Positions 439 through 30,570 of a stretch of DNA of 32,096 nt are shown one piece after another. Positions within the stretch are counted from its first letter, which is position 1, and each line of letters opens with the position of its first letter. Both the position numbers and the translations under genes were made by a program. The DNA is from Candidatus Zhuqueibacterota bacterium (lineage in GTDB: Bacteria; Zhuqueibacterota; Zhuqueibacteria; Oceanimicrobiales; Oceanimicrobiaceae). Where the stretch lies: positions 90,772 to 122,867 of the forward strand of contig JAJDAD010000036.1 of the NCBI GenBank assembly GCA_029262055.1, read 5' to 3'. A model generated the notes under the pieces. The model made no database searches, was not told the DNA's origin, and worked only from the letters and a program-made list of their open reading frames with translations.

Positions 439-2295
439 TTATTCGGTGGCCGCCACCATCAGTTCCGTCATCCGCTCTACAAACTCGGTTTGCGAAGTCA
501 GGTCCCCTTCGATGAGCAGAGCGCCATCATAGATTTGCAGAATGCTGTTTCTTAAGATGGGATCGCTGTCGTCCGAAATAATGCGTTTGCCAAGATTCTT
601 TATAAGGGGGTGGGAAAGATTGATTTCCAGGATCTTCTTCGAGCCTTGATGGGCCTGGTTCATCATCTTCATCATTCTCTCCATCTGTTTGTCCATGCCG
701 TCCTTGCCGACGACCAGAGTTGCCGCCGAGTCCACCAGACGCTTGGAAGCGATGACGTCTTCGACTTTGTCGGCCAGGGTCTTCTTGAAGACCTCGATTA
801 AGGTCTTCGCAAGTCCCTCACTCAGGGCCTCCTTGTCTTCTTTGTCTTTTTGTTTCAGGTCGAGATCTGCTTTGTCGATGGATTTGATTTTCTTCTTATC
901 ATACTCCTGCAGGGATGGCATGATGAAAACATCGAACGGTTCGCTCAGCAGCAGAACTTCTATCTCGTTCTTTTTGAAGTATTCCAGGTTGGGATTTCTC
1001 TGAAGTACATCGCGGTGTTCCCCTGAGATGTAGTAGATCTCTTCCTGTTCTTCCTGCATTCTGTCTGCGTAGGTTTTGAGCGAGATCAATTCGTCGTTTT
1101 CTGTCTTGGTCGTTTCGAAGCGCAGCAACTCTACAATCTTGTCTTTGTGGGTAAAGTCGCTATTGACCCCGGTCTTGAAGATCGGACCAAAATTCCGGTA
1201 GAATTTGTCATATTTTGTGGTCTCTTTCTTCGCCATCTTGTCGAGCCAGGTCAATATTCGTTTCACCAGAATATTCTTGATCTTGACCATGGCGGGGCTC
1301 GACTGTGTTACCTCACGCGACACATTGAGCGGGAGATCTTCGGTATCCACCACGCCGCGCAGGAAGCGCAGGTACTCCGGTAGAAGCTCGGTGCAATCAT
1401 CCTGGATAAACACTTTGTTCGAATAGAGCTGTAACGACCGCTCAAGGTGCTCCCGTTCGAAAACCGGCGGCGCTGTTTCAGGGATAAAGATGAGCGCCTT
1501 GAAGTTGACCGCGCCCTCAATCGAGAGGTGCAGGTGCGCCAGCGGCGGACTGAAATCATTCGAAATGAACTTATAAAACTCCGCCAGCTCTTCCTCTTTA
1601 ATCTCTTCTTTCTTGCGATGCCAGAGCGCACTGACCCTGTTAACCTCTTCCTTGCCCACAAAAATCGGGAAGTCGACAAAATTGGAGTATTTCTGGATCA
1701 CGCTCTTGACTTTGTACTCTTCGCTCAGGTCAAAGTGCGGTTTCTTGAGCTTGAAGGTGATGCGGGTTCCTCGTTCTTTCCGGTCGATTTCTTCGATGTT
1801 GAATTTGCCCTGGCCGTCTGAAGTCCAGCGCAGGCCCTGGGAGTCCTGGTCGGAGTGGCGGGTTTCGACCGTGACCTTGTCGGTTACCATAAAGACCGAG
1901 TAAAATCCCACGCCAAATTGGCCAATGAGACCGTCGGCGGGTTGTTCGCTCTCCTGCATTTGCTTGAAAAACTCAAGCGTTCCGGAGCTGGCTACAGTTC
2001 CCAGTCTGTCTATCAAATCATCCCTGGTCATGCCCAATCCGGAATCCTCGATTGAGAAAGTGTGCTTTTGGGCGTCGACCTCTATTTTGATCTTGAGATC
2101 AGCTTCCGGGTCTGCGACAGCGGAGTCGGTCAACATCCGAAAACGTATTTTGTTCAAAGCGTCAGAAGCGTTCGAAATGAGCTCGCGTAGAAATACTTCA
2201 GGATGGGTGTAGAGGGAATGGACAATAAGCTGAAGCAGTTGCTTCATTTCGGCTTTGTATTCGAACTCCTGGGACTTTGTTGCTTTGGGGGCCAT
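439..2295 (-). CDS. htpG: Molecular chaperone HtpG (Hsp90)
   Basis: The 618-residue product has the usual length and order of bacterial Hsp90. The N-terminal GHKL ATPase domain shows SNASDALNKIRF (about 41-52), DSGLGM (84-89) and the lid/glycine motif GQFGVGF (125-131). The middle domain carries the conserved LPLNVSRE stretch and the C-terminal part is the dimerisation domain. It is a cytosolic ATP-dependent dimeric chaperone that remodels client proteins. The ATG start is supported by GGAG at 2305-2308 on the complementary strand, nine bases upstream. It lies downstream of the DDAH gene in the same direction but is separated from it by a strong terminator, so it should have its own promoter. 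The 5' leader can form competing hairpins near the ribosome binding site (see findings). Confidence 0.97.
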   Translation of the reverse strand: MAPKATKSQEFEYKAEMKQLLQLIVHSLYTHPEVFLRELISNASDALNKIRFRMLTDSAVADPEADLKIKIEVDAQKHTFSIEDSGLGMTRDDLIDRLGTVASSGTLEFFKQMQESEQPADGLIGQFGVGFYSVFMVTDKVTVETRHSDQDSQGLRWTSDGQGKFNIEEIDRKERGTRITFKLKKPHFDLSEEYKVKSVIQKYSNFVDFPIFVGKEEVNRVSALWHRKKEEIKEEELAEFYKFISNDFSPPLAHLHLSIEGAVNFKALIFIPETAPPVFEREHLERSLQLYSNKVFIQDDCTELLPEYLRFLRGVVDTEDLPLNVSREVTQSSPAMVKIKNILVKRILTWLDKMAKKETTKYDKFYRNFGPIFKTGVNSDFTHKDKIVELLRFETTKTENDELISLKTYADRMQEEQEEIYYISGEHRDVLQRNPNLEYFKKNEIEVLLLSEPFDVFIMPSLQEYDKKKIKSIDKADLDLKQKDKEDKEALSEGLAKTLIEVFKKTLADKVEDVIASKRLVDSAATLVVGKDGMDKQMERMMKMMNQAHQGSKKILEINLSHPLIKNLGKRIISDDSDPILRNSILQIYDGALLIEGDLTSQTEFVERMTELMVAATE

Positions 2296-2303
2296 CTTAA
2301 TTC

Positions 2304-2330
2304 ACTCCATTTGAGGAGATAATAATCTCC
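2304..2330 (-). promoter_or_regulatory. Possible structured leader at the htpG ribosome binding site
   Basis: On the minus strand the leader holds a perfect hairpin, GGAGAT-TATT-ATCTCC (2330-2315). Its 3' arm contains CTCC, which can instead pair with the Shine-Dalgarno GGAG at 2308-2305 across a 6-base loop. The two pairings are mutually exclusive, which is the layout expected of a simple RNA switch or thermometer. Only the complementarity is seen; function is inference. Confidence 0.35.
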
Positions 2331-2358
2331 GAAATTCTATCGTTGTGTACGATTCAAC

Positions 2359-2417
2359 AAAAAAATCCGAACCTCTTCGAGGACTCCAACCCTGGCAGGC
2401 CTTTCAGGTGCGGATTT
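2359..2417 (-). terminator. Rho-independent-type terminator after the DDAH gene
   Basis: Read on the minus strand, AAATCCG-C-ACCT (2417-2406) pairs with AGGT-T-CGGATTT (2374-2363), giving an 11-bp stem with one mismatch, followed by a run of seven T. It lies about 80 bases beyond the DDAH stop and before htpG. The loop itself contains a small CCTC/GAGG hairpin, so the structure may be branched. It would insulate htpG from DDAH transcription. Confidence 0.7.
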
Positions 2418-2497
2418 GTGCACATATGAAAATGTTGCCTCATCAGATTTCTAATATATGAAAACCTGCCTCGAAATTCAATTTTTTTTACAAAATG

Positions 2498-3262
2498 TTA
2501 AGCATTAAAGAGTAGGCTTAAACAGGTCAATCCCGCCTCTGCTTTGGAGAGTTCTGATATGTCGATGGTCCGGACTTTGAAATCCAGGTCGCGTAGCATT
2601 GCTGCGGTTTCAGGAAATTCCTCCGCCACACAAACAGTCTGGCCGATGCAGAGCACGTTGGCGGCCCAGGGCTCTGTTTCGTCCACCGTTATGACATTGA
2701 ATTCCGACAAAGCTGCAATATCGACCCATGCCGGGTTTACCAGCAGGGAACGGCCGCTCAAGGCAGTGCAGGCTGTCTTCAGGTGCAGGCAATCTTCCAC
2801 TTCCACAGAAACTAGGTTGTAATCAAAGACGTCCGCGATCTCTTTGAAGGCGTTAATTCCTGCTTCATTTGTACGGCTTGTTTTGCCGACAAAAAGCGTG
2901 TTGCCCATCTGCAGGACATCGCCGCCTTCCAGGGTGGCCGGGGCCTGAATCACCTCAATGCTCCTGTGACGCGCCAGCTCTGTTGCGATTGCCTGTTCCT
3001 CGCCACGCCGCGCTGCAATGCCGGGCCTGCAAATGACGGCCACCTCGTCGAGTATGACCGCGCTATCCTCCACGAAAACAGAGTCCGGATAGCTGAGATT
3101 GTCGCTGAGAGTGATAATCTCAGCACCAAGTTCTTGCAACGTCTCGCAATATCGCTTATGTTGCTCTACAGCTATTTGCGGATCGATGGCGACTCGTTTC
3201 TTGTGAGTCAATTCGCAGCGAGTGATTTCGGGGGAAACTGTGTGAACAAACGCTTTTAACAT
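2498..3262 (-). CDS. Dimethylarginine dimethylaminohydrolase (DDAH)
   Basis: The 254-residue protein has the length of Pseudomonas aeruginosa DDAH and the same catalytic triad shifted by two positions. Glu112 lies in LEGGD, His160 in EDCLHLKTACT, and the nucleophile Cys247 in GLTCLSLLF. The N-terminal YPDSVFVEDSAVI segment matches the substrate-binding region of the guanidino-group-modifying superfamily. Known members hydrolyse N-omega-methylated arginines to citrulline and methylamines; related enzymes act on arginine or other guanidines, so the exact substrate is inferred. The start has only a weak GGA just upstream. The gene is monocistronic by context: a terminator follows it and a divergent gene precedes it. 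Confidence 0.88.
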   Translation of the reverse strand: MLKAFVHTVSPEITRCELTHKKRVAIDPQIAVEQHKRYCETLQELGAEIITLSDNLSYPDSVFVEDSAVILDEVAVICRPGIAARRGEEQAIATELARHRSIEVIQAPATLEGGDVLQMGNTLFVGKTSRTNEAGINAFKEIADVFDYNLVSVEVEDCLHLKTACTALSGRSLLVNPAWVDIAALSEFNVITVDETEPWAANVLCIGQTVCVAEEFPETAAMLRDLDFKVRTIDISELSKAEAGLTCLSLLFNA

Positions 3263-8195: not shown

Positions 8196-8960
8196 ATGAT
8201 TCCAATATTATTCAAGCTAGGTCCGATCACCATCAACAGCTTTGGTGTGATGGCGATGTTTGCTTTTTTGATCCCCACAGTTTTACTGCGAAAAGAAGTT
8301 GCCCGCATTGGTCTCGATCCTGACTTAGCCAACGGCATCGCTATCGCTGCCATGATCGGCGGCTTTCTCGGGGCCCGGCTTTATTACATTTTTGAACGCT
8401 GGGATCGGTTCCTCGCGGACCCTACATCCTATCTCTTTACGGGGGCCGGGCTTGTTTGGTACGGAGGTCTGTTCGGCGGGACCATTGCCGTCCTCTGGTA
8501 TCTCAAGCGCCAGAAAGTTTCGGTTCCGCTCGTGGTCGACTTGACGGCGCCGCTGCTGGCCTTGGGACAGGTCTTTGGCCGCTGCGGCTGCTTGTTGTCT
8601 GGCGATGGCGACTATGGCCACGCGACCGAGGTGCCGTGGGCAATGTCTTTTCCGGAAGGCATCGTACCAACCAACGAGCTGGTCCATCCCACGCCTATCT
8701 ATGATATGGCGATTTTGTTTGCAATATTTTTACTATTGTGGAGCCTGCGCACACGCCAAATGCCTGCCGGGAGCAAGTTGAGCCTTTATTTCATCCTGAT
8801 CGGGATCGGCCGTATTGTCACGGAGATCTGGCGTACGACCCCGGACGTTCTGTGGGGCTTGACCGCCGCTCAGCTTATAAGCATGGCGCTGATCGTCACC
8901 GGCTCCGGTTTGATTGTTTATTTACACGCAGACAAGGGGCGGGCAAATGCGCGACCCTGA
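8196..8960 (+). CDS. lgt: Prolipoprotein diacylglyceryl transferase
   Basis: Lgt moves diacylglycerol from phosphatidylglycerol to the lipobox cysteine of prolipoproteins, the first step of lipoprotein maturation in the inner membrane. The 254-residue protein has about seven hydrophobic segments and the family's landmarks in order: GARLYYIFERW (59-69), GLVWYGGLFGG (85-95), the signature GRCGCLLSGDGDYG (128-141) with VPWAMSF, and HPTPIYD (164-170). The signature is a variant of the E. coli GRIGNF form; Cys at the Asn position is seen in other phyla. It opens a same-strand run leading into the ccm genes, 50 bases before the zinc-ribbon gene. Several lipoproteins in this window would be its substrates. 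Confidence 0.95.
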   Translation: MIPILFKLGPITINSFGVMAMFAFLIPTVLLRKEVARIGLDPDLANGIAIAAMIGGFLGARLYYIFERWDRFLADPTSYLFTGAGLVWYGGLFGGTIAVLWYLKRQKVSVPLVVDLTAPLLALGQVFGRCGCLLSGDGDYGHATEVPWAMSFPEGIVPTNELVHPTPIYDMAILFAIFLLLWSLRTRQMPAGSKLSLYFILIGIGRIVTEIWRTTPDVLWGLTAAQLISMALIVTGSGLIVYLHADKGRANARP

Positions 8961-16661: not shown

Positions 16662-17507
16662 ATGCCAACCATAAAACTCTTTCCGATGCCGTTGGCCGGC
16701 TGGCAGCCTACCCGCGACACCATTCAGCGTTATTGTCAGGTCATAGGAAAAATACGAAGCGCGTTTTCCTACCGCAGAAAACACTGGTGGCATGTTGATT
16801 TGCGTCCCGACGTGACAGGGTTGTGTACTCCACCGATCCCGGCCAAAGAAGGAGCGGACGCCTTTCTGTTCAAGATGCATCTGGATCTCATGTCACATTG
16901 CATGGTATTGACATCAAGCAAGGGACAGGAGCACAGCATCCAGCTTGGCGGCCAGTCTGTGGCTGCGTTTGCCACCGAGGTATTGGCGTCGCTCACCGGA
17001 ATGGGTCTGGAGCCGAAAGTAGACTTGGAGATGTTCGACGACCAGTCTACGGGTGAGTACGATGCCGGCGCCGTCGAAAGATACTGGCAGAACCTGGGTC
17101 AGATTGCGACCGTCTTTGATGAATTCCGGTCCGGGCTCCGACAGGAAACCAGTCCCATCAGTTTTTGGCCCCATCATTTTGACATGACGTTTATCTGGTT
17201 CTCCGGCCGGTTGGTCCCGAATTTTAACCCGGCTGATGAGGAAGGGGCAGACGAGCAAATGAGCTTCGGTTTTTCAACGGGTGATGAAGGGCTTCGGGAC
17301 CCGTACTTTTACATTTCGGCCTACCCTATGCCAGAGGCGCTCCCGAGAGCTGTTTTACCGGATGGCGTTACCTGGTACGAGGAGAGTTGGCAGGGGGCAT
17401 TGCTCCAATTCGGAGATTTGTTGACATCGGACAATCCCAGAGGTCAATTGCTGCAGTACCTCGGGACGATGTTCAGGGCTGGAGAAAAACTCATGGCTGC
17501 TAACTAG
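16662..17507 (+). CDS. DUF5996 family protein
   Basis: The ATG at 16662 has AAGGAG seven bases upstream. The 281-residue product begins LPLAGWQPTRDTIQ-like (here MPLAGWQPTRDTIQRYCQVI) and has KHWWHVDLRP, a beta-strand pair with the HSIQLGG motif, and FWPHHFDMTFIWFSGR. It then has DEQMSFGFSTGDEGLRDPYF and a C-terminal helix after WQGALLQFGDLL. This order matches DUF5996, a family of unknown biochemical function found in many environmental bacteria. The conserved His pair in WPHHFD and the acidic GDEG could form a metal site; this is inference. The GNAT gene starts seven bases after its stop and is probably co-translated. Confidence 0.8.
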   Translation: MPTIKLFPMPLAGWQPTRDTIQRYCQVIGKIRSAFSYRRKHWWHVDLRPDVTGLCTPPIPAKEGADAFLFKMHLDLMSHCMVLTSSKGQEHSIQLGGQSVAAFATEVLASLTGMGLEPKVDLEMFDDQSTGEYDAGAVERYWQNLGQIATVFDEFRSGLRQETSPISFWPHHFDMTFIWFSGRLVPNFNPADEEGADEQMSFGFSTGDEGLRDPYFYISAYPMPEALPRAVLPDGVTWYEESWQGALLQFGDLLTSDNPRGQLLQYLGTMFRAGEKLMAAN

Positions 17508-18051: not shown

Positions 18052-20214
18052 CTACCTCCCCGGCATGCTCCCGTCACCTTCAGCTTCTTCTCTCAATATT
18101 TGCCTCTTGTAGTTTACCACGCCTTGAAATAGTCTGGCAACGTCTCTCCTAAAATCACCTGGTCTATTGTAATGCAGGAGTACCTGGATCGCCGTTTTGT
18201 TCGTAAGCGTTACTTCGGGCACACTGGTGTCCTGATGCAGCTGCGTTTGAGTGCCGGGCTGTTTGGCGAATTCGGCAAGGATGGCAGTCGCGATTTGTTC
18301 ACCGACCTTGTTTGCCGGGTAGATGGTTGCCCGCACCAACGCCAAGTCAGAGTTGTGTTTCTGATAGCCTACCTGCAGGTACCAGCCATCTTGAATCGCA
18401 TTTACTTTCCGGATTCGCTCTTTTGAAGCTAGAGTGCTGTCCTGTTCTCGTACCAGAATTCCGGTGGCGCCGGCCCAGCGCAGGGTTTTTGTCAGGGCCT
18501 GGGAAAACTTCAAGTTCAACTGCGCCGCATTTGTTTGACCGTCAAAAAGATCGCCGTTGTCATCCCCGCCGCGGGCCGCATCGACAATCACGACTTCACC
18601 ATAAAGAAGGCCGCCCAAAATCGCACGCATTTCGATATCGACAAGCTGGCTGTTTGTGGAATCAATATGCACCGTTCGCCTCTGGCCGGCATAACCATCT
18701 TTACTGACGAGAAGCTGCTTGCTTCCGACCGGCGGGTTCCTGAAAAAATAGAAACCGTTTTCATCTGTTCGTGTTGCGGTTGCATCGCCCATCGCGACCT
18801 CCGCGTTGACTATTGGTGTCCCGGTAGAGTCGTCCATTACGGCTCCACTTATTACCCACGTATGTCCGGGAGGTGCCAGGGATAGAAGGAGTGTGTCTGT
18901 ATAGGATCCTGCTGTTGCAATCAGATAGACCAGGCCCATGTCCTGTTCTGCCTGGTAGTATGCGCTCGTCATGCCGTTGCTGAGCTGGGGAGCTGCAGGC
19001 GTAACTTTGCCGCGGCTGGCCTCAAGCTTGATCGGCGTTCCATCCCATACCGTTTCAGAGTCGTTGTCGAATACAGTCAGCCGGATTGGGACCCGGGCAT
19101 TCTCGTCAGCCGGCACATATTGCGATACGACTTCGAACCGGATCGAATCCGCAGGCGCCGCTACGATGAGTGTGTCCACGCGCGGGAGGCTGTGGTTCTT
19201 AAACATGTTTTCCAGATCTACTTGCACGAGATGTTGACCGTTGCTCAAGACCGAGTCGGGACTGAAAGTGACGGAGCGTTTGTCGTCCGCGACCTGGACC
19301 GGCACGCCTCTGCCATCTATTTGGGCGGTGACGGAGTTGCCAAACACCCTCTCCCCGGCCAATCCGCGATCGACCAGCGCTGTCAAGCCGTCAAAAAGGG
19401 CATATTCTATGGTTGGGGCCTTAGTCGTGGAGATGCCCGCAGGCGTTCGTTTCTCAGTTCTGGGCACGCCGCCCGCCGCCCAGCGTGCCAATCCCAGGAA
19501 GATCCCGTATGCCTCACGCCGGTTGTACCTGAGATTTGTCAGCCGTTTCTCCTCAGCCGGATAGGAGTAAAAGGAAGACTCTAGGAGAATAGCCGGAATC
19601 AGGGACTGCCGCAGCAGGCCAAATCCAGCAGGATAGATCAAGGTGTCGGTCAGCAGGCCATCGTCCAGCACCTGCGGCAGGCGCAACGCTTCGACCAGGC
19701 CAAAATAGATGTTGCGCGCCAGGTCCATGCAGACTGGAGAGTAGTCAGGCGTCAAGTGGTAAAAGACCGACGAGTAGTTGGTAGCCGGATTGTCGCCGGC
19801 ATTGTGGTGCAGGGAGACCATGAAATCGCACCCGGCTCCTGCTGCCATTTCGGCCCGGTCCTTGAGCGAAACAAAGCTGTCATCGGTGCGCGTCATGAAC
19901 ACCGTGGCGCCGGCTCTTTCAAGAAATTCTTTCAGAAAAAATGCGACTTTGAGATTCACCACGGCTTCACGTTTACCGGTTGGTCCACGTTTGTAACCTG
20001 GTATATGCGCATTGCCGCCGTGACCGGGATCCAGCGCAATTTTGAAGTTACTGAGATTGTACGAATACGGCGGGATTACGTAATTCTCTTTGGGTAACTC
20101 GACCCAATCCTTCCAGGTCAGGCTGCCGGATGAACAGCCCATGGTCAGGAATGTTGTGATCACGGCAGCACGAAAAATGGCATTCATTCCGTTGCGCTTT
20201 ATTTGGTTTTTCAT
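18052..20214 (-). CDS. Lipoprotein N-acetylmuramoyl-L-alanine amidase with dead second amidase domain
   Basis: The 720-residue product has a lipoprotein signal ending LTMGC (Cys27). Residues 57-245 are an Amidase_3 domain with all zinc and catalytic residues: His65 (DPGHGG), Glu83 (KREAVVN), His136 or His137 (SLHHN), and Glu212 (AILLESSF). It should cleave the amide between MurNAc and the peptide stem in the periplasm or at the outer membrane. A beta-rich middle (about 265-445) and a carboxypeptidase-type regulatory domain (452-530, ISGAVMDDSTGTPIVNAEV...TDENGFYFF) follow. Residues 537-715 again look like Amidase_3 but lack the zinc ligands. The start has little ribosome binding signal; a second Met at residue 10 is possible. 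Confidence 0.9.
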   Translation of the reverse strand: MKNQIKRNGMNAIFRAAVITTFLTMGCSSGSLTWKDWVELPKENYVIPPYSYNLSNFKIALDPGHGGNAHIPGYKRGPTGKREAVVNLKVAFFLKEFLERAGATVFMTRTDDSFVSLKDRAEMAAGAGCDFMVSLHHNAGDNPATNYSSVFYHLTPDYSPVCMDLARNIYFGLVEALRLPQVLDDGLLTDTLIYPAGFGLLRQSLIPAILLESSFYSYPAEEKRLTNLRYNRREAYGIFLGLARWAAGGVPRTEKRTPAGISTTKAPTIEYALFDGLTALVDRGLAGERVFGNSVTAQIDGRGVPVQVADDKRSVTFSPDSVLSNGQHLVQVDLENMFKNHSLPRVDTLIVAAPADSIRFEVVSQYVPADENARVPIRLTVFDNDSETVWDGTPIKLEASRGKVTPAAPQLSNGMTSAYYQAEQDMGLVYLIATAGSYTDTLLLSLAPPGHTWVISGAVMDDSTGTPIVNAEVAMGDATATRTDENGFYFFRNPPVGSKQLLVSKDGYAGQRRTVHIDSTNSQLVDIEMRAILGGLLYGEVVIVDAARGGDDNGDLFDGQTNAAQLNLKFSQALTKTLRWAGATGILVREQDSTLASKERIRKVNAIQDGWYLQVGYQKHNSDLALVRATIYPANKVGEQIATAILAEFAKQPGTQTQLHQDTSVPEVTLTNKTAIQVLLHYNRPGDFRRDVARLFQGVVNYKRQILREEAEGDGSMPGR

Positions 20215-20353: not shown

Positions 20354-23245
20354 ATGCTAAGAGCGACAACGACTTTTCTAATACTGGCGCTTCTGTGCTT
20401 TGCAGTTTCACCCTCAGTGGCACAGGAGTATTCTTTCGATTTTCTGGGAATGGCTTCGTTTCAGACGGGGCATATGTACAAAGATGTCGAACTGGGCGGT
20501 CTCTCCGGGATTTCGTACGACCCGGCCCGCAATCTGTATCTGGTTATCAGCGATGATCGCAGCAATCTTGCCCCGGCCAGGTTTTATACCCTGCAAATCG
20601 ACCTTGCCGACGGCAAGCTCCGGGAGGGGGATGTGCAATTCCTGACTGCTAATACTCTGATGGCTCGGGATGGTAAGTCATTTGCCAGAGGCAGTATTGA
20701 TCCGGAGGGGATTGTCTGGCTCGACCGGCAGACAATCCTCGTCTCTTCAGAAGGCAGTTCGGACACGGTCCACCCTCCGTTTATCCGCAAGTTTTCTCTG
20801 GAGGGCGGTTACCTTGGTCCTCTGGAGTTGCCGCAGAAATTCATTCCTAGTCCTGAGCGCGATCATGGCATACGGAGAAACAAAGGTTTCGAAGCCCTCA
20901 GTGTCACTGCTGATAGCCGGTACCTGTATGCCGCCAATGAAGAAGCTCTTATCCAGGATGGCCCCGAGGCCGGACTGGGAGTGTCTTCGCCGGTGCGTAT
21001 TCTCAAATATGACATTGCCGGCGAACGCCTGCTTTCAGAATATCTTTATGAGGTCGAGGCCGTCGATGTGGCTCCGAGCCCTAGCGGTGGTTTTCATGGC
21101 AACGGGCTGGTCGAGCTTATTGCGCTCAACGAGAATTCCCTGATCGCCATGGAGCGGCGGTACTCCCAGGGTGTCGGTACCGGCATCAAGCTTTTTCAGG
21201 TTTCTTTAGCCGATGCCGACGACATCTCGATGCATGATGGCCTGAAGGGCCTGGATCTTGACAATGTAAAAAAGGCTGAGAAGAGCTTTTTGTTCGATGT
21301 TTCTGATACCGGCGTTGCACCAGACAATGTCGAGGGCATGACTCTGGGCGCCCGCTTGCCCGACGGACGGACAAGTCTGATTCTGGTGAGCGACAACAAT
21401 TTCAACAAAGAGCAAATGACACAATTTATAGCACTGGCCCTGCCGCAGCAGGAGGTGAAAGTTGCGGAGCCGACAATCTCGGAGATTCAGGGTGCGGGCC
21501 ATCGCTCTCCGCTTCTGCACCAACCCGTGCAAGCGGTCCGGGGAGTCGTCACCGGCAAGAAGACCCTGCGCAATCGACACGGCTATTGGATTCAAGATTC
21601 TGACGGCGACAGGGATGACGCCATATCGAATGGCATTTTTGTCAGTACCGACCGGCAGCCGGTCGGCGTTGAAGTCGGTAATCTGGTCCAGGTGTCGGGC
21701 ACGGTTGCTGAGGTCGGCAGGCGAGCGGAATTGACTATCACCCAAATCATCCAGTCCAGGGTCGAGGTTTTGTCCGCACAAAACGAGTTGCCGCGTCCGG
21801 CTACCTTTGGTAAAGACAGATATAAACTCCCCGACAGCAATATAGATGACGACAAGATGACCAGCTATGATCCCGCGACTGACGCCATCGATCTGTTTGA
21901 GAGTCTGGAAGGCATGCTGGTGCAGGTAGAAAAGGCTGTTGTAGTTGGACCGACAAGTCGTTTTTCTGAATGCGTCGTGTTGGCCAATGAAGGCAAAAAA
22001 GCCGGCCAACGCAGCAAGCGCGGTGGCATCGTTGTGCAACAGGACGATTTCAACCCGGAACGTATCCTGGTCAACTTTTCGCAGGAGCCGGAAGTCCCTG
22101 CTTTGACTGTCGGTGACAGATTCAAGGAAAGTGTTGTCGGCGTGCTCGACTACAGCTTTGGCAATTACAAACTGATGTGCAGCAGTCCTCTTCCCGAGCG
22201 TAAAGAGAAAGGTCTGCGCAAAGAAGTTGCGGAGTTGAAAGCCGGTGGCGAGCAAGTTACCATCGTCACTTACAACGTGGAGAACCTGGATGCTGAGGAC
22301 ACTGCTGAAAAATTTTCTACAATCGCGGAAAATATCGTCAAGGGCCTGCTTAGCCCGGACATCCTGGCTTTGCAGGAGGTGCAGGATGACAACGGCGCGG
22401 CCGATAACGGCGTAAGTTCGGCCACGAAAACGTTTGGGCGCCTGATAAGCGCGATTCAGGAAGCGGGCGGGCCTGAGTATGATTTTTGCCAGATCGACCC
22501 GGTTCACAATCAGGAAGGTGGGCAACCTGTCGGCAACATCCGGGTCGGTTACTTGTTCAACCCCGGGCGTATACACTTTGACAGGCGTGGTAGCGCCGGG
22601 TCCCTGGACGCGGTTGGCGTCCGTGCATCCGGAGATAGGGCACACCTTAGCCTTAACCCCGGGCGGGTTGCGCCGACAGCACGAGCATTCGCCAGGGACC
22701 AGGGCCGGAGCTATAGCAGTAGTCGCCCACCTCTCGCCGCAGAGTTCGGGTTCAACGGCCATCGGCTTTTCTTGATCAACAATCACTTCCGGTCCAAAGG
22801 TGGAGATGAGAGACTGTTTGGGGCACGACAACCTCCCCGCTTTAGAAGCGAAATCCAGAGAAATGAACAAGCGGAGGTAGTGCGGGCGTTTGTTGATTCC
22901 CTGCTGTCCCGGAACAGCGACGCCAATGTAATTGTGCTCGGTGATTTGAACGAACACGAATTCAGGGCGCCCCTGCAAACCCTTGTGCATGACGATGTAC
23001 TCACCAACCTGGTGGAGCGCGTTTCCCTCAACCGGCGTTACACGTATGTTTTTAACGGGAATTCTCAAGTGCTGGACCATGTTCTGGTGAGTAAGAATTT
23101 GCTGGACACTGCCGAGCCGGCCATCGAGATCGTACACATCAATGCCGAATACGCCCACAGTGAGCGGGCGAGCGACCACGATCCGGTTCTTGCCCGGTTT
23201 AAGTTGCCGGCAAACCCTGCCAAGTCAACTCGTTCTGAGAAATAA
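20354..23245 (+). CDS. Secreted phytase-like / endonuclease-exonuclease-phosphatase fusion
   Basis: The 963-residue product has a signal peptide (cleavage near SVAQE, residue 24) and three regions. Residues 28-362 match the 'esterase-like activity of phytase' propeller family (GGLSGISYDPARN, VISDDRS, DPEGIVW, NKGFEALS, DNVEGM). Residues 373-620 resemble the OB-like region found before secreted nucleases (VRGVVTGKKTLRNRHGYWIQ). Residues 634-950 are an endonuclease/exonuclease/phosphatase domain with Asn641 (TYNVENL), Glu675 (LALQEV), His811 (NNHFRS), Asp864/Asn866 (LGDLNEHE), Asp908-His909 and Asp941-His942 (SDHDP). A secreted phosphodiesterase or nuclease that helps gather phosphate is a reasonable inference. 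The catalytic residues appear complete. GAGG precedes the ATG by six bases. Confidence 0.9.
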   Translation: MLRATTTFLILALLCFAVSPSVAQEYSFDFLGMASFQTGHMYKDVELGGLSGISYDPARNLYLVISDDRSNLAPARFYTLQIDLADGKLREGDVQFLTANTLMARDGKSFARGSIDPEGIVWLDRQTILVSSEGSSDTVHPPFIRKFSLEGGYLGPLELPQKFIPSPERDHGIRRNKGFEALSVTADSRYLYAANEEALIQDGPEAGLGVSSPVRILKYDIAGERLLSEYLYEVEAVDVAPSPSGGFHGNGLVELIALNENSLIAMERRYSQGVGTGIKLFQVSLADADDISMHDGLKGLDLDNVKKAEKSFLFDVSDTGVAPDNVEGMTLGARLPDGRTSLILVSDNNFNKEQMTQFIALALPQQEVKVAEPTISEIQGAGHRSPLLHQPVQAVRGVVTGKKTLRNRHGYWIQDSDGDRDDAISNGIFVSTDRQPVGVEVGNLVQVSGTVAEVGRRAELTITQIIQSRVEVLSAQNELPRPATFGKDRYKLPDSNIDDDKMTSYDPATDAIDLFESLEGMLVQVEKAVVVGPTSRFSECVVLANEGKKAGQRSKRGGIVVQQDDFNPERILVNFSQEPEVPALTVGDRFKESVVGVLDYSFGNYKLMCSSPLPERKEKGLRKEVAELKAGGEQVTIVTYNVENLDAEDTAEKFSTIAENIVKGLLSPDILALQEVQDDNGAADNGVSSATKTFGRLISAIQEAGGPEYDFCQIDPVHNQEGGQPVGNIRVGYLFNPGRIHFDRRGSAGSLDAVGVRASGDRAHLSLNPGRVAPTARAFARDQGRSYSSSRPPLAAEFGFNGHRLFLINNHFRSKGGDERLFGARQPPRFRSEIQRNEQAEVVRAFVDSLLSRNSDANVIVLGDLNEHEFRAPLQTLVHDDVLTNLVERVSLNRRYTYVFNGNSQVLDHVLVSKNLLDTAEPAIEIVHINAEYAHSERASDHDPVLARFKLPANPAKSTRSEK

Positions 23246-24696: not shown

Positions 24697-27600
24697 CTAC
24701 TTCAGGAAGACCATTTTTTTTGTTGCCACGAATTGCCTGTCTACCGGCCCCTCCGAACGCGCTATGAGCCTGTAGAAATACGTTCCTGTAGCCGCGATTA
24801 CCCCGCTATCCGTTTTTCCATTCCAAATGACTTGATGGACTCCCGCGGATTTGTTTGCCCCGGACAGTAAGCTTACGATCTCCTGCCCCTGTACGTCAAA
24901 TATCTTCAGGGTTACGGCTGCGCGCGCAGGCAGCTCAAACTGAATCTGAGTTTCCGGATTAAACGGATTCGGGTAGTTTTGGTGCAGCAGAAATCTTTCA
25001 GGCAATGCTGTGCCAGGAACAGTGACCGCGGTTAGCAGCTCCGGATATTGAAAGAATCCCGGGCCGGAGTAGTCGGAAGCTCCTCCGTATGGGTCGCTGG
25101 CCTTAATGCGCCAGGAGTAGAATTGCCCCGGCTCAAAACCGTAGGCAGGTTCCAAGTCGGCGATTAGTAAGCTTGTATCGCCGATGGCTTCTCTGGCAAA
25201 CAGCTGCCGGGAAAAGTCGACATCACGCGCAATCTGAATTGCATAGCTAATGGTATGGCCACTGTCCGGATCCGCTGCCTTGCCCCAGGTCAACGCGTTC
25301 GTTGTCTGAATCTGGTCCGGTGGGCTCAGAACCGGCGTCGACGGGGCCGAGTTTACGTACAAGCTGACCGGAACCTCCAGTACAGGTGTGACTTCGTGGT
25401 CACAGATGACCCGTAGCCGGGCTGACCGGATGCCGGTCGCGTTCGGCCGGGCCCAGGTGACAAATCCTACGACTTGCCCGGTTGCAAGTCCGATTGGCAG
25501 GCCGGCCGGCTCTACCAGGAACTGGTTTGAATCGGCTCCGGTAATATGCACGGCAAGAATTTCGGCGTACGACTCCGTATGGTTGCTGACTTGAAGAGTC
25601 GTTGTGCTACTGTCGCCGGGATTGAGAATACCGAAGTCATAAAGAACGGGCGTAATCGCAAGCTCCAGAGCCGGAAAAGTCGATGAGTTTGCAACCCCGG
25701 GCGTTCCCCCGGTCGCGGCGCTGGCTTGCCAGTTTTCGGATGCTGCGTTGTCGCTGACCGGGTCGCGGAGTTCGAGGGAGGGGCCGGCACCGTTTGCCTC
25801 AGCGGGCCAGGGCGATACGTTGCCGTAAGTAACGGTGTCGATCACGCGCCCCTGATCGTCCACGAGTGTTATTGTTTCACCTGCGTTAACCAGATTGCCT
25901 GCGGTCCATTCTGTGCTGCCGGGATAGGCGGACGAGTCGATGGCCAGAACCAGAAAAGTCCCGGCTTGCAGAGAGTCGTTCCCCCGAAAGGTGTGCGTGA
26001 TGCCGTCAGTGAACGTCCAGCCGGCCAGAGAGACGTCGATAGAATCTGACACGTTGACCAGTTCGAGAAATTCGAACTCGCGGTCCGGGCCTTGTTGCGT
26101 GCCGGGATTGTAGTGAATTTCGTTGATCACCACGACGCCGGTGAGAGCAGGCAGGGAGTCAAGCGTAGCAGTGCCGGAGAGCGGAACTGTCAGAAACGGC
26201 GTCACCGGGTCATTGCTGCTGACAAGCAACTGAGCGTTTGCGGGACCTGGCGCCAGCGGCTCAAAGAGCAGAGTGAATTCAGTCATGTCATTGGGTTGAA
26301 TCGAAATAGGAACGGCAGGCATGTCCAATCGCCACTGGCTGGAATCAGGGCCGGTGATGCTGGCCGTGGAAATTTCCAGCAGGGCGTTGCCGGTGTTGCT
26401 CAGCATAAGTGCACGTGCGACCGTTTCCTGCACCCTGACGACTCCGAAATCAAGACTATCCGGCGTTGCCGTGATAACCGGAGCGGCCAGGAGTGAGCCA
26501 GTACCTTTTCCGTTCAGGCTGACATAGAATTTTTCCGCAACCGGGTCATTGCTGCGAAAGCGGATGAGTCCCCGCAGCAAGCCGAGGGTGTCGGGTCGGA
26601 AAAACACGGTAAACTGCTCGCTCCCGGAAGGTGGCAACGTAAGCGGCAGTTGCGTGTCGTTGATTTTGAACTGCCGGGCGTTCGATCCCGCCACGTCGAT
26701 GTCGTCGACCACCAAGTCGCTGTTGCCGGCATTGCGCAGGTCAAAGCGTACCTCTGCCTGCTGGCCGATGTCGACTTGTCCAAACCGAATCTTGTCCACC
26801 GAAGCCGTAATGTGCGGCGCGAGCACGCTGCCCGCCAGAGTGATTTCCAGCGGATCTTCGTCCGGATCATTGCTGCGGATGCGCAGGACCGCAGTCTTGT
26901 CGCCCGGGGAAGTTGGTCTGAAGCAGACGATGACTTTCTGGTCTCCCTTCACTCCGACGGTGAATGGCGCCTCTCCCTTGCGAAGCAACCAGTGCTCGGC
27001 GTCCGGCCCCACGACATTGGTGGAATCGACGGACAGAACCGCATTGCCGCGGTTTTTGACAAACAGATCGAAGTCCAGTTCCTGGCCGACCGGGACATCT
27101 TCAAATACCAGGTTGGATTCAGGGACCGCGATATCCGGCACTGGCGGTTCCTCGACAGTGGTTTCTTCATGGTCGCCATTGTTGCCCGGCACGGGATCGC
27201 TGGTCGCGGAAGAAACGCGGGCGCTGGTGGTCTGTCGCCCGGTGCTGGTTCCTCGCGCCACAATTTCGATCGCGACGATTTCGTCCTCGTTTATTTCACC
27301 AAGATCGCAGCTAACCACACCGCCCGAGTGACTACAGGCTTCCGAATCACTATAGACAAATTCGAGGCCGTCCGCAAGCTCTGCGACCAGCACAGCGTGT
27401 TGCGCCGCATCGGCTCCCTTGTTTGAAATCCGCACGCCGAAGGTGACTTCCTCTCCAAGCGTGATTGGATCAGGAGCATCCTTCAACGTCAAGACCAAAT
27501 CCGCTTGCGGTAACCGGTTCCTACCGCCGGGAGTGGGCGGAGCCGGTTCATAAGCAGCGGTGTTGCGTACGCCGCCGGCTCCGTTCGGGATTCTCTGCAA

Positions 27601-30216
27601 TGAGTGGCCGGCGGGATCACCCCCGGCGCTTTCATCGGCCTGAGGTTGACCGGCGTTGAGAAGGGCGAGCAATCCCGGGTCGTCCGGGTCGCCGGTGGCA
27701 TAGACGATCGCGTCGACAAGTTTGCTGGCAGAGATGGCTGTCCCATTTGGAAAATTCGCCGCACCGCCAAAGTAGAGCGCCACCGCATCCGGGCCATTTT
27801 GCAGGGTCGCATTGGCGATGGGCAAGTCGAGGTTCGGCGTTGCCGCACTGCCAAGCACGAAGAAACCATCCGCATCAGTTTGAGAGCCGGCGAGGTCCAC
27901 AGACGCATACGAGACGTCGCTTGTACCGTTGAACAGAACCACAACCAGGCCGTCCAGAGAAGTATTGCCCTGGCCGCCGTCGAACAGCTCGATAAACTCC
28001 ATGTCATCCGCACCCGGGGTGTCGGAATCGACTTCGTTAATTAGTACAGATGTTGTCGGCACCGGTACGACGCCGGTGCTTTCGCTGGCGGTATTGTTCT
28101 GTTCGTCCGGGTCATCTGTATCCGAGATCACCTCCGCGTTGTTGGTAAGCTGGCCAATCGAATTTGACAGCACGGTAAGCGTAACTTCCACCCGGCCGCC
28201 ATTCACCATGTTACCGAGCTGTGCCGTCACGATGCCGTTGGCATGAGAACTGGTCCCTTGCTCCGAGAGCGCTGACACAAAAGTCACCTCCGGCGGGAGC
28301 GGGTCGCGCACGATTACGTTTTCCGCCGTGTCGGGGCCGTTGTTGACGACTGTCAAGGTGTAGACTATCTCGTCTCCGGCAAACACTGGATCGCCTGCGT
28401 CGATTTTTGTGAGCATCAAATCTGACTGTAGAGTCAGGAGGTTCTCCGCGCCAGGAGTCGGTGGAATCGCGATGTAGCTGTCTGTGTTGCGGGCGCCGCC
28501 CGTGCCGTTCGGGAGGCGCTGCAGAGAATGGGCGTCTTTGTCCCCACTGCCGTTTTCGTCCGCCTGCGGCTGCCCGGCGTTCAGGAGTGTTTTCAAAATT
28601 TCGTCGTCCGGATCGCTGGTATCGTACACCAGCGCATCGACCAGCTTACTCGTGTTGAGCGGCGTACCGTTAGCAAAGTCAGTTGCGTCGCCAAAATAGA
28701 GCGCAACTGCGTCAGCACCGTTCTGTAGCGCATTGTTTGAAATCACCAAATTGACATTGGCAACATTTGCGTTACCCAGGACAAAATAGCCGTCGGCGCT
28801 TGTGCTGTTGCCATCCAGATCAAATACAGCATACGACTGGTCATTGCTGCCGTTGTAGAGCACGACCACTAACCCGTCCAGGTTTGTGCCGCCGGCGCCA
28901 CCATCGAACAGTTCGATAAACTCCATCTCGTCGGCGCCCGGCGTGTCGGAGTCGACTTCATTGATCAGCACCGGAGTCGTTGGCAATGGCAGTACCTGGG
29001 TTTCTTCGGAGTCCGTGTTGTTAGCGCCAACCGGGTCGTCAGTATGGGATGTAACCTCGGCTGAGTTACTTAGCGTGCCGGATGCGCCGGCCTGCACCAC
29101 GATTGTAACAGTTACGGTTTGACCATTCAAGATCTCACCCAGGTCGGCGCTGACTAGACCGGCTGACTCTGAGGCATTGCCCTGCTGTGCCACGACCGAT
29201 ACGAACGTTGCCGTCGCCGGCAGCAGGTCACTGATCGTTACGTTGCTCGCCGTATTGGGACCCAGGTTTGTGACGGAGATTGTATAGCTGAGATTGTCGC
29301 CGACAAAAACCGGATCTGCATCGTCCGTTTTCAGCACCGCAAGATCTGCTTCCGGCGTGGCCATGAGATTGTTGAAGTTCACAAAAGCCGACTCCCCGGA
29401 ACCCAAGTGAATGGTGGCGCCGGATCCGGACCGCGTGCTGCCTGATCCGGTGACGGTCACGTCATCCAGGATCCAGCCGGATTTCTGAGTTTCAGTAATC
29501 GCGTAGTCGCCGGGTACCAGATTATCGAATGTCCGGCTCTGGCCGTGATCCAGACCGAAAGTGCCCAAATCACCCGTGAAGTCAAAGCCGGTGGCCCCCG
29601 CCGGCGAAGTGGCTTTGCTGACAGTAATGCTGCCCGGGGCGCCGGCAGAGCAGCCGGAGAAAGGCGTCCCGTCCAACTGCGTCCCGGGGGAAAACAAGGC
29701 ACCTGAAGATGCTGAGATAGTCGCGTGCCGGACCAGGACGCTGCCGCTGACGTCAGGATCCCGGGTAATCGACTGGTCACTGCCTGCTTCGCTGCCGTAG
29801 GTGTAGCTGGACACATCGGAGGTGCCGTCGTTCAGGGAGACGGTGTCGCCCGTATTGTTTAATCCGAGCGAGGTGGCGGTTTGTACCAAAGCGCCGCCGA
29901 ACGAACCCGTGGGGGTGCCGCCGCCAAAGATCACAAGCGCACAGTTAGCCGGAATGACCGTCCCGCCCGGAAACGTGTGCCGGACGTTTATCTCGTCAGA
30001 CAAGGTCCAGCCGGAGATATCCACCGCGGCAACAGACGAATTGACCAGCTCGACGAACTCGTCGTCGTCCGAGCTTCGGACGCCGTCGCGGTTGGCATCT
30101 CCCGCCGGTGCGGCTGCCGGATCTGCGTGAATTTCATTGATAATGATTTGCGCTGCCAGTTCTGAGGATATTGCGATCAGGCTAAAGGCAAGTATCAGTT
30201 GCGGGATTCTCGTCAT
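24697..30216 (-). CDS. Giant T9SS-sorted secreted protein with lamin-tail, DUF11 and HYDIN-like repeats
   Basis: The ATG at 30216 has GGAGG five bases upstream; the GTG just before it is probably not used. The 1,839-residue product has a signal peptide (to about LAAQ). Modules in order: lamin-tail domain (LTD, IIINEIHADPAA); a prealbumin-like stretch (GFDFTGDL..ITETQKSGW); DUF11; LTD (LINEVDSDTPGADEMEF); DUF11; LTD (LINEVDSDTPGADDMEF); DUF11; three ASPM/HYDIN-like beta domains (IRFGQVDIGQ, LDFGVVRVQET); another LTD (VVINEIHYNPG); one more HYDIN-like domain; a fibronectin III-like domain; and a FlgD-like C-terminal T9SS type A signal (NYPNPFNPETQI...GTYFYRL). It is likely a surface or extracellular structural protein anchored or released by T9SS. 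No catalytic domain is visible. Confidence 0.9.
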   Translation of the reverse strand: MTRIPQLILAFSLIAISSELAAQIIINEIHADPAAAPAGDANRDGVRSSDDDEFVELVNSSVAAVDISGWTLSDEINVRHTFPGGTVIPANCALVIFGGGTPTGSFGGALVQTATSLGLNNTGDTVSLNDGTSDVSSYTYGSEAGSDQSITRDPDVSGSVLVRHATISASSGALFSPGTQLDGTPFSGCSAGAPGSITVSKATSPAGATGFDFTGDLGTFGLDHGQSRTFDNLVPGDYAITETQKSGWILDDVTVTGSGSTRSGSGATIHLGSGESAFVNFNNLMATPEADLAVLKTDDADPVFVGDNLSYTISVTNLGPNTASNVTISDLLPATATFVSVVAQQGNASESAGLVSADLGEILNGQTVTVTIVVQAGASGTLSNSAEVTSHTDDPVGANNTDSEETQVLPLPTTPVLINEVDSDTPGADEMEFIELFDGGAGGTNLDGLVVVLYNGSNDQSYAVFDLDGNSTSADGYFVLGNANVANVNLVISNNALQNGADAVALYFGDATDFANGTPLNTSKLVDALVYDTSDPDDEILKTLLNAGQPQADENGSGDKDAHSLQRLPNGTGGARNTDSYIAIPPTPGAENLLTLQSDLMLTKIDAGDPVFAGDEIVYTLTVVNNGPDTAENVIVRDPLPPEVTFVSALSEQGTSSHANGIVTAQLGNMVNGGRVEVTLTVLSNSIGQLTNNAEVISDTDDPDEQNNTASESTGVVPVPTTSVLINEVDSDTPGADDMEFIELFDGGQGNTSLDGLVVVLFNGTSDVSYASVDLAGSQTDADGFFVLGSAATPNLDLPIANATLQNGPDAVALYFGGAANFPNGTAISASKLVDAIVYATGDPDDPGLLALLNAGQPQADESAGGDPAGHSLQRIPNGAGGVRNTAAYEPAPPTPGGRNRLPQADLVLTLKDAPDPITLGEEVTFGVRISNKGADAAQHAVLVAELADGLEFVYSDSEACSHSGGVVSCDLGEINEDEIVAIEIVARGTSTGRQTTSARVSSATSDPVPGNNGDHEETTVEEPPVPDIAVPESNLVFEDVPVGQELDFDLFVKNRGNAVLSVDSTNVVGPDAEHWLLRKGEAPFTVGVKGDQKVIVCFRPTSPGDKTAVLRIRSNDPDEDPLEITLAGSVLAPHITASVDKIRFGQVDIGQQAEVRFDLRNAGNSDLVVDDIDVAGSNARQFKINDTQLPLTLPPSGSEQFTVFFRPDTLGLLRGLIRFRSNDPVAEKFYVSLNGKGTGSLLAAPVITATPDSLDFGVVRVQETVARALMLSNTGNALLEISTASITGPDSSQWRLDMPAVPISIQPNDMTEFTLLFEPLAPGPANAQLLVSSNDPVTPFLTVPLSGTATLDSLPALTGVVVINEIHYNPGTQQGPDREFEFLELVNVSDSIDVSLAGWTFTDGITHTFRGNDSLQAGTFLVLAIDSSAYPGSTEWTAGNLVNAGETITLVDDQGRVIDTVTYGNVSPWPAEANGAGPSLELRDPVSDNAASENWQASAATGGTPGVANSSTFPALELAITPVLYDFGILNPGDSSTTTLQVSNHTESYAEILAVHITGADSNQFLVEPAGLPIGLATGQVVGFVTWARPNATGIRSARLRVICDHEVTPVLEVPVSLYVNSAPSTPVLSPPDQIQTTNALTWGKAADPDSGHTISYAIQIARDVDFSRQLFAREAIGDTSLLIADLEPAYGFEPGQFYSWRIKASDPYGGASDYSGPGFFQYPELLTAVTVPGTALPERFLLHQNYPNPFNPETQIQFELPARAAVTLKIFDVQGQEIVSLLSGANKSAGVHQVIWNGKTDSGVIAATGTYFYRLIARSEGPVDRQFVATKKMVFLK
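27512..29350 (-). repeat. Tandem ~0.9-kb DUF11+lamin-tail units inside the giant gene
   Basis: Two adjacent units, about 28436-29350 and 27512-28435, each encode a DUF11 domain followed by an LTD-like domain with near-identical landmarks. Shared landmarks are LINEVDSDTPGAD(E/D)MEFIE, LDGLVVVL(Y/F)NG, the pair NGADAVALYFG / NGPDAVALYFG, LLNAGQPQADE, HSLQR(L/I)PNG and PTPG. Boundaries are approximate. A third DUF11 without its LTD partner follows. This indicates internal duplication. Confidence 0.8.
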
Positions 30217-30570
30217 CACAACCTCCGCTACGATAGGTGAGTATGTTCTTGCGGACCGCCACCTGATGGGCTTTGGTCGTATTTGGTTTTTGCCCTGAGA
30301 TTGGTTTTGCTACAACGCTGGTGTCTTGGGATTTTCTGATCGCGGGATGTCGGAAAGAGTCGAATGAGGGGTCTGTGAGCCCAATTCCCTCCCAGCACGT
30401 TTGTAAGGATAAAAAAGTCCAATCTTAAAGTCAACTCTTTACTGGCTGCGATTTGCGGAGAACTCCGGATGTGAAACCAAGTCTGCAAAACGTTGTGCTG
30501 CGCCGGCTTTTCCCCAAAGAAAAATCTAAAAAAGAGTGTACATTAGTGCACTTATTGATTATGTTGCTCC
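30217..30570. promoter_or_regulatory. Divergent intergenic region, giant gene / polymerase gene
   Basis: This 354-base spacer separates two divergent genes. It holds the GGAGG ribosome binding site of the giant gene at its left end and the LexA-box-like palindrome near its right end (30535-30552). The middle shows no gene or clear RNA; the short frames crossing it have no features. Confidence 0.5.
30535..30552 (+). promoter_or_regulatory. LexA-box-like palindrome before the dnaE2-like gene
   Basis: AGTGTAC-ATTA-GTGCACT is an 18-base inverted repeat with one mismatch, 18 bases before the polymerase start codon. Its core TGTAC-N4-GTGCA differs by one base from the Fibrobacter LexA box TGCNC-N4-GTGCA as I recall it. 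DnaE2/ImuC genes are classical SOS targets, so an operator is plausible. Confidence 0.5.

Follow-up and report, generated by a model that had tools for sequence, protein, structure and literature searches.

A predicted lipoprotein amidase with a conserved second Amidase_3 domain that lacks the zinc site

The 32,096-nucleotide stretch of Candidatus Zhuqueibacterota DNA analysed here (the window) encodes a 720-residue predicted lipoprotein with two amidase domains, the second of which belongs to the Amidase_3 fold family yet fails its defining features as an enzyme. We consider it almost certain that this second domain is a conserved non-catalytic Amidase_3 domain. Regarding its function, we tentatively prefer a role in holding peptidoglycan, by analogy with amidase folds that recognise this polymer without zinc, and both propositions taken jointly are put forward just as tentatively. 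The original prediction, made from the sequence alone, had described a peptidoglycan-binding or regulatory module, which was a sensible guess.

Domain layout and fold of the second domain

The protein consists of an active amidase domain, two Ig-like domains, a carboxypeptidase regulatory-like domain and the pseudo-amidase, in this order (Table 1). Residues 455-529 match CarboxypepD_reg in Pfam (PF13620, E 1.6e-12), and fold comparison relates this domain to the transthyretin-like domain of carboxypeptidase D (5aq0, Z 14.4). Residues 250-450 align with the β-sandwich domains of GH2 enzymes and intimin, the rmsd being large for a joint alignment of the two domains. A linkage through a carboxypeptidase-type regulatory domain had been proposed; this domain is indeed present, but the linker is larger than envisaged, with two Ig-like β-sandwiches preceding it. 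Pfam matched no M23/LytM domain in the 720-residue protein, and a search of NCBIfam gave sub-threshold matches only.

Table 1. Features of the gene and its predicted product, in window coordinates.
Feature	Position	Strand	Basis
Whole gene, 720-residue predicted lipoprotein	18052..20214	-	Translation; orthologues of the same layout
Signal peptide, residues 1-27, with lipobox-like LTMGC at its end	20134..20214	-	Read from the sequence; Cys27 kept in 12/12 aligned relatives
Catalytic Amidase_3 domain, residues 55-250; H65, E83, H136 and E212 intact	19465..20052	-	Pfam, E 7.7e-43 over residues 59-243; ligand columns
Two predicted Ig-like β-sandwich domains (the arm), residues 256-449	18868..19449	-	Secondary structure; fold comparison
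Carboxypeptidase regulatory-like (transthyretin-like) domain, residues 452-531	18622..18861	-	PF13620; fold comparison
Pseudo-amidase, residues 537-712; Amidase_3 fold without zinc site	18079..18606	-	Pfam; fold models; ligand columns
R548, in place of zinc ligand His65	18571..18573	-	Alignment
A563, in place of zinc ligand Glu83	18526..18528	-	Alignment
G616, in place of zinc ligand His136	18367..18369	-	Alignment
L679, in place of catalytic Glu212	18178..18180	-	Alignment
TIYPAN, residues 630-635, pseudo-domain signature (HYPGS-like in other phyla)	18310..18327	-	Alignments
TNKTA, residues 671-675, pseudo-domain signature	18190..18204	-	Alignments

A loose lipobox rule, which asks for a Cys following a hydrophobic run, was satisfied by 82 of the 91 open frames; six have none and three lack an in-frame first-domain motif. 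Two proteins are repeated among the 91 frames, and of the six, at least L160 has a lipobox by eye. Two proteins from the phylum of G211 (L092 and L094) have a signal peptide in which no clear lipobox Cys is seen; their second domains keep the catalytic-Glu position and have lost the zinc ligands. A further carboxypeptidase-regulatory-like stretch follows the pseudo-amidase in L094, L095, L097 and L182, as judged by eye only. Moreover, two paralogues, L101 in G211 (1463-3031, minus strand, 523 residues) and L102 in G347 (943-2559, plus strand, 539 residues), comprise only the first four domains, the second amidase domain being absent, and both genomes also encode the full version. Thus, the arm and the cutting domain can exist without the pseudo-domain.

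Residues 532-720 alone match Amidase_3 in Pfam with an E-value of 1.7e-11 and 44.9 bits, where the curated cut-off is 27, and match no other family there. As Pfam scores both domains, automatic annotation would count both as amidases. The gapless match at an offset of 480 that had been described (AGAT at 101 and 581; MTRTDD at 107 over LVREQD at 587) holds: the 61-residue pairing of residues 83-143 with 563-623 contains 15 identities and reaches a BLOSUM62 score of 46, compared to 22 for the best of 2000 shuffles of residues 532-720. A plain count of identities over all offsets did not pick out 480, and the signal therefore resides in substitution scores and profiles rather than in raw identity. 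The replacement of DPGHGG by DAARGG is likewise found, at residues 62 and 545; a loop shorter by three residues makes the offset there 483 instead of 480.

An AlphaFold2 model of the second domain alone, built on a 14-row alignment, has a mean pLDDT of 86.9 and a pTM of 0.85. Its top 24 matches in the PDB are all Amidase_3 structures (Z 20.1 to 14.6), headed by CwlD (7rag; Z 20.1 over 165 residues, rmsd 2.3), and the first entry below them is a poly-gamma-glutamate hydrolase with a Z of 11.3. PGRP is not among the fold matches listed, an absence that is no test of a PGRP fold. In the full-length model, whose pTM is 0.54 and whose first-domain loops have low pLDDT (shallow alignment), residues 537-706 adopt the Amidase_3 fold as well. 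The modelled fold is thus the anticipated one and not another.

The surroundings of the gene include a divergently oriented neighbour (20354-23245, plus strand) of 963 residues with phytase-like esterase and endonuclease/exonuclease/phosphatase domains. Further away are a putative surface protein of 1840 residues (24697-30219, minus strand) with DUF11, lamin-tail and ASH/HYDIN-type Ig domains and a C-terminal FlgD_ig stretch, an HSP90 family protein (439-2295, minus strand) and a prolipoprotein diacylglyceryl transferase (Lgt; 8196-8960, plus strand), the latter in keeping with lipoprotein processing.

Lost ligands, distribution and selection

The loss of zinc and catalytic residues stated in the original prediction is borne out by the alignment, in which H65, E83, H136 and E212 correspond to R548, A563, G616 and L679. 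In the translation, residue 83 is Glu and residue 563 is Ala, and SLHH (134-137) lies over QVGY (614-617), so that Gly-Tyr takes the place of the two histidines. Only the statement that Glu212 has no counterpart has to be corrected, as the aligned position exists and is occupied by Leu679.

This state extends to the relatives. In the joint alignment, none of the 93 second domains has the three zinc ligands intact; 83 keep none and at most 10 keep one, the latter figure being an upper bound, as the E83 column can be aligned only arbitrarily in rows that lack the first-ligand loop. This loop is missing as a whole in most rows from the phylum of G122. All four zinc and catalytic positions are kept in 90/90 first domains and in 41/41 other amidases. 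A Glu stands in the catalytic-Glu column of 56/93 second domains, mostly from the phylum of G122 (the column is meaningless for L185, which has a frame change within the second domain and was read as is). It is thus too simple to say that every second domain has lost all four positions. Judging from the alignment, such a Glu without zinc ligands makes up no active site of the known kind.

A search of 388 genomes with the middle and second domains gave matches at E 1e-20 or better in 25, several of them outside the phylum. The occurrence of the two-domain architecture in other genomes, which the original prediction had proposed to look for, was found in 93 genomes from eight phylum-level groups, as defined by the search tool. 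The window's class contributes 11 of its 63 genomes; there, the second-domain profile scored above 245 bits, while all other listed matches scored 63.5 bits or less. The remaining second domains come from the phyla of G122 (62/84 genomes), G217 (6/8), G181 (5/7), G105 (3/3), G322 (2/2), G211 (2/2) and G200 (2/2). The total of 93 is the sum of second domains actually seen, with each genome entered once: L093 repeats L104 (G122), L189 repeats L098 (G181), L181 and L187 repeat L097 and L099, and seven loci from a contig scan that repeat genomes already in the set, with equal scores, were left out. Also outside the count are L191 (G481), which stops before the second domain, the single amidase-type match in G390 and an additional partial match that L192 has in another open frame. 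The first domain lies off the contig in L098, where a false first-domain match was removed, and in another frame in L180.

The second domains have signatures of their own. TNKxA occurs in 74/85 second-domain rows and in 0/85 first-domain rows; the former 85 include one repeat (L093, which all 85-row counts still contain), and the latter include that repeat and one false match. Many second-domain rows also have a [HI]YP-[GAN]-[SN] stretch at the strand after the third-ligand strand. Furthermore, the position equivalent to H137 of the active domain, adjacent to the lost third ligand, is His or Tyr in 82/85 second-domain rows, which fits a retained pocket.

Four close pairs gave dN/dS values of 0, 0.26, 0.09 and 0.21 for the second domain and of 0.25, 0.07, 0.03 and 0.06 for the first, as calculated with an in-house Nei-Gojobori script on small numbers in the closest pair. 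The second domain is under purifying selection. Among KSB1 orthologues, its identity to the window protein is 33-45%, compared to 69-81% for the first domain.

In our best tree, sampled from 23 of the 93 second domains, 23 first domains and 35 of the 41 other amidases, the 23 second domains split from the 58 catalytic domains with a support of 100/98, and KSB1 pairs with the phylum of G122 in both halves. A smaller tree of 14 second domains, 14 first domains and 41 others gave the corresponding split (14 versus 55) with a support of 98/91. AU tests on this smaller tree did not reject a grouping of second and first domains within the protein family (p 0.165 and 0.198). The trees suggest, but do not prove, one old origin of the second domains, and long branches could add to their grouping. 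The second domain had been regarded as a duplicate of its own partner domain. This is not shown, since the sampled second domains group together and apart from the catalytic domains, although the AU tests leave it standing as an alternative; a recent tandem duplication is disfavoured on the same grounds. Taken together, purifying selection, the domain's own signatures and the single split from catalytic domains identify the second domain as an old pseudoenzyme domain and not a decaying copy.

Candidate roles of the zinc-free domain

The predicted product is a lipid-anchored wall amidase that contains the amidase fold twice. The first of these folds, N-terminal and with a complete zinc site, should cut peptidoglycan and would be situated near the membrane, while the three sandwich domains would keep the pseudo-amidase at a distance from it. 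The C-terminal fold should be unable to bind a catalytic zinc in the usual way. It may, however, retain a modified substrate cleft that holds the stem peptides of peptidoglycan uncut. In doing so, the pseudo-amidase could tether or position the active domain on the sacculus, much as zinc-less PGRP domains bind peptidoglycan.

In favour of this candidate explanation are the fold, the lost ligands, the purifying selection, the signatures, the His or Tyr beside the third ligand, Cys27, the long arm and the precedent of PGRP-SA. Three observations count against it. Evolution is faster in the second domain than in the first, which would also fit a surface that docks a changing partner protein; the cleft must differ in those rows from the phylum of G122 where the first-ligand loop is deleted; and the Glu in the catalytic column of 56/93 second domains makes other chemistry possible.

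The main rival, which we regard as plausible but rather doubtful, is a regulatory pseudoenzyme. Here, the second domain would bind an active amidase, its own or another, or a division protein and switch or aid activity, as EnvC, DipM, GerS and CwlM do for their targets. Degenerate hydrolase domains that control wall enzymes are well precedented, the cases reported including CwlM (PMC4946905), GerS (PMC8496864) and DipM (PMC10336132). In keeping with such a role, the active domain lies in the same chain wherever upstream sequence is present in one frame. The closest structural match is CwlD from the CwlD:GerS complex, though this match reflects the amidase chain and not its partner. A fixed contact of the two amidase folds finds no support in the full-length model, whose pTM is 0.54. 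No conserved partner gene adjoins the gene either: among seven loci compared, only the DUF5996 gene (16662-17507 in the window) recurs, and at one of them (L035).

Alternatively, the second domain might be a mere spacer or offer a surface for dimerisation or protein docking, its old cleft being without a ligand. Its faster evolution relative to the active domain would agree with this, as would the paralogues L101 and L102, whose arm does without it. The low dN/dS and the signatures that persist both within phyla and from one phylum to another call for more than a spacer, and we consider this explanation unlikely.

A remaining enzymatic function of the second domain, based on a different metal site or different chemistry, is very improbable. 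The catalytic-column Glu would be compatible with this, as would the single acidic or His residue that a ligand column retains in some rows; in the window protein, however, the four positions are R, A, G and L, and no common alternative ligand set appears at these columns. Finally, the lost ligands and the presence of the gene in only 11 of the 63 genomes of its class might point to a copy of the first domain that is decaying and being lost. This is ruled out for practical purposes by a dN/dS of 0 to 0.26, the kept fold, the same zinc-free state (zinc set intact in 0/93) in eight phylum-level groups and the one common split from catalytic domains.

Comparison with known amidases and pseudoenzymes

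Compared to the catalytic Amidase_3 domains (PF01520; CwlD, LytH, AmiA/B/C and Rv3717/Ami1), the second domain shares the whole-domain fold and the profile match. It differs in the zinc set, in signatures of its own and in Leu679 for the catalytic Glu, which in active members ends the strand before the last helix.

Wall amidases must be kept in check. EnvC, NlpD and DipM resemble the second domain as inactive wall-hydrolase domains in the envelope that are tied to amidase control, DipM reportedly being a regulator of this kind (PMC10336132). In contrast, their degenerate LytM (M23) fold has no match in the window protein. GerS is a lipoprotein that activates CwlD (PMC8496864). Both systems combine a lipoprotein and an amidase that act together, and CwlD has the nearest fold to our second domain; GerS, however, is a separate protein, whereas both parts are found in one chain here. 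GerS is not known to have an amidase fold.

CwlM of mycobacteria is a degenerate Amidase_3 protein turned regulator (PMC4946905, PMC12723410). It misses zinc ligands, has a non-enzymatic role and stimulates MurA (PMC4946905). Unlike the window protein, CwlM is cytoplasmic, phosphorylated and equipped with peptidoglycan-binding domains, and the text available to us describes no second active amidase. The window protein is a predicted lipoprotein whose signal peptide with LTMGC speaks against a cytoplasmic location, and it has an active amidase in cis. TftA of Nostoc has an Amidase_3 domain in which the putative active-site His and Glu are replaced by Lys and Gln (PMC10710843); its partner domain is a glucosaminidase, and a second Amidase_3 domain is not described in the consulted part of that report.

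Insect receptors of the PGRP-SA type are a precedent for the holding role that we prefer. PGRP-SA has lost two of four zinc ligands and kept its docking groove for peptidoglycan (PMC515366), an amidase fold that recognises the polymer without zinc. They differ from the window protein in being animal immune receptors. The PGRP (Amidase_2-like) fold is not known to be related to the Amidase_3 fold.

Pseudoenzymes derived from wall hydrolases are thus already known. A tandem of active and inactive Amidase_3 domains in a lipoprotein found across phyla may be new: our search of the open PMC literature, which mostly does not include subscription journals, found no paper on such a protein. Possibly, and as a tentative generalisation, zinc-free domains of the Amidase_3 type read peptidoglycan in the envelopes of many bacterial phyla; as a general reader fused in cis to a working amidase, and descended from the same fold as the cutter, such a domain would be a bacterial parallel to the animal PGRP receptors. 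If the pseudo-amidase reads peptidoglycan or gates the active domain, the protein would offer a self-contained, one-chain model of amidase control that could be produced and studied as a single piece. The amidase controllers cited above are separate proteins, while here an old pseudo-amidase resides in the same chain as the active amidase.
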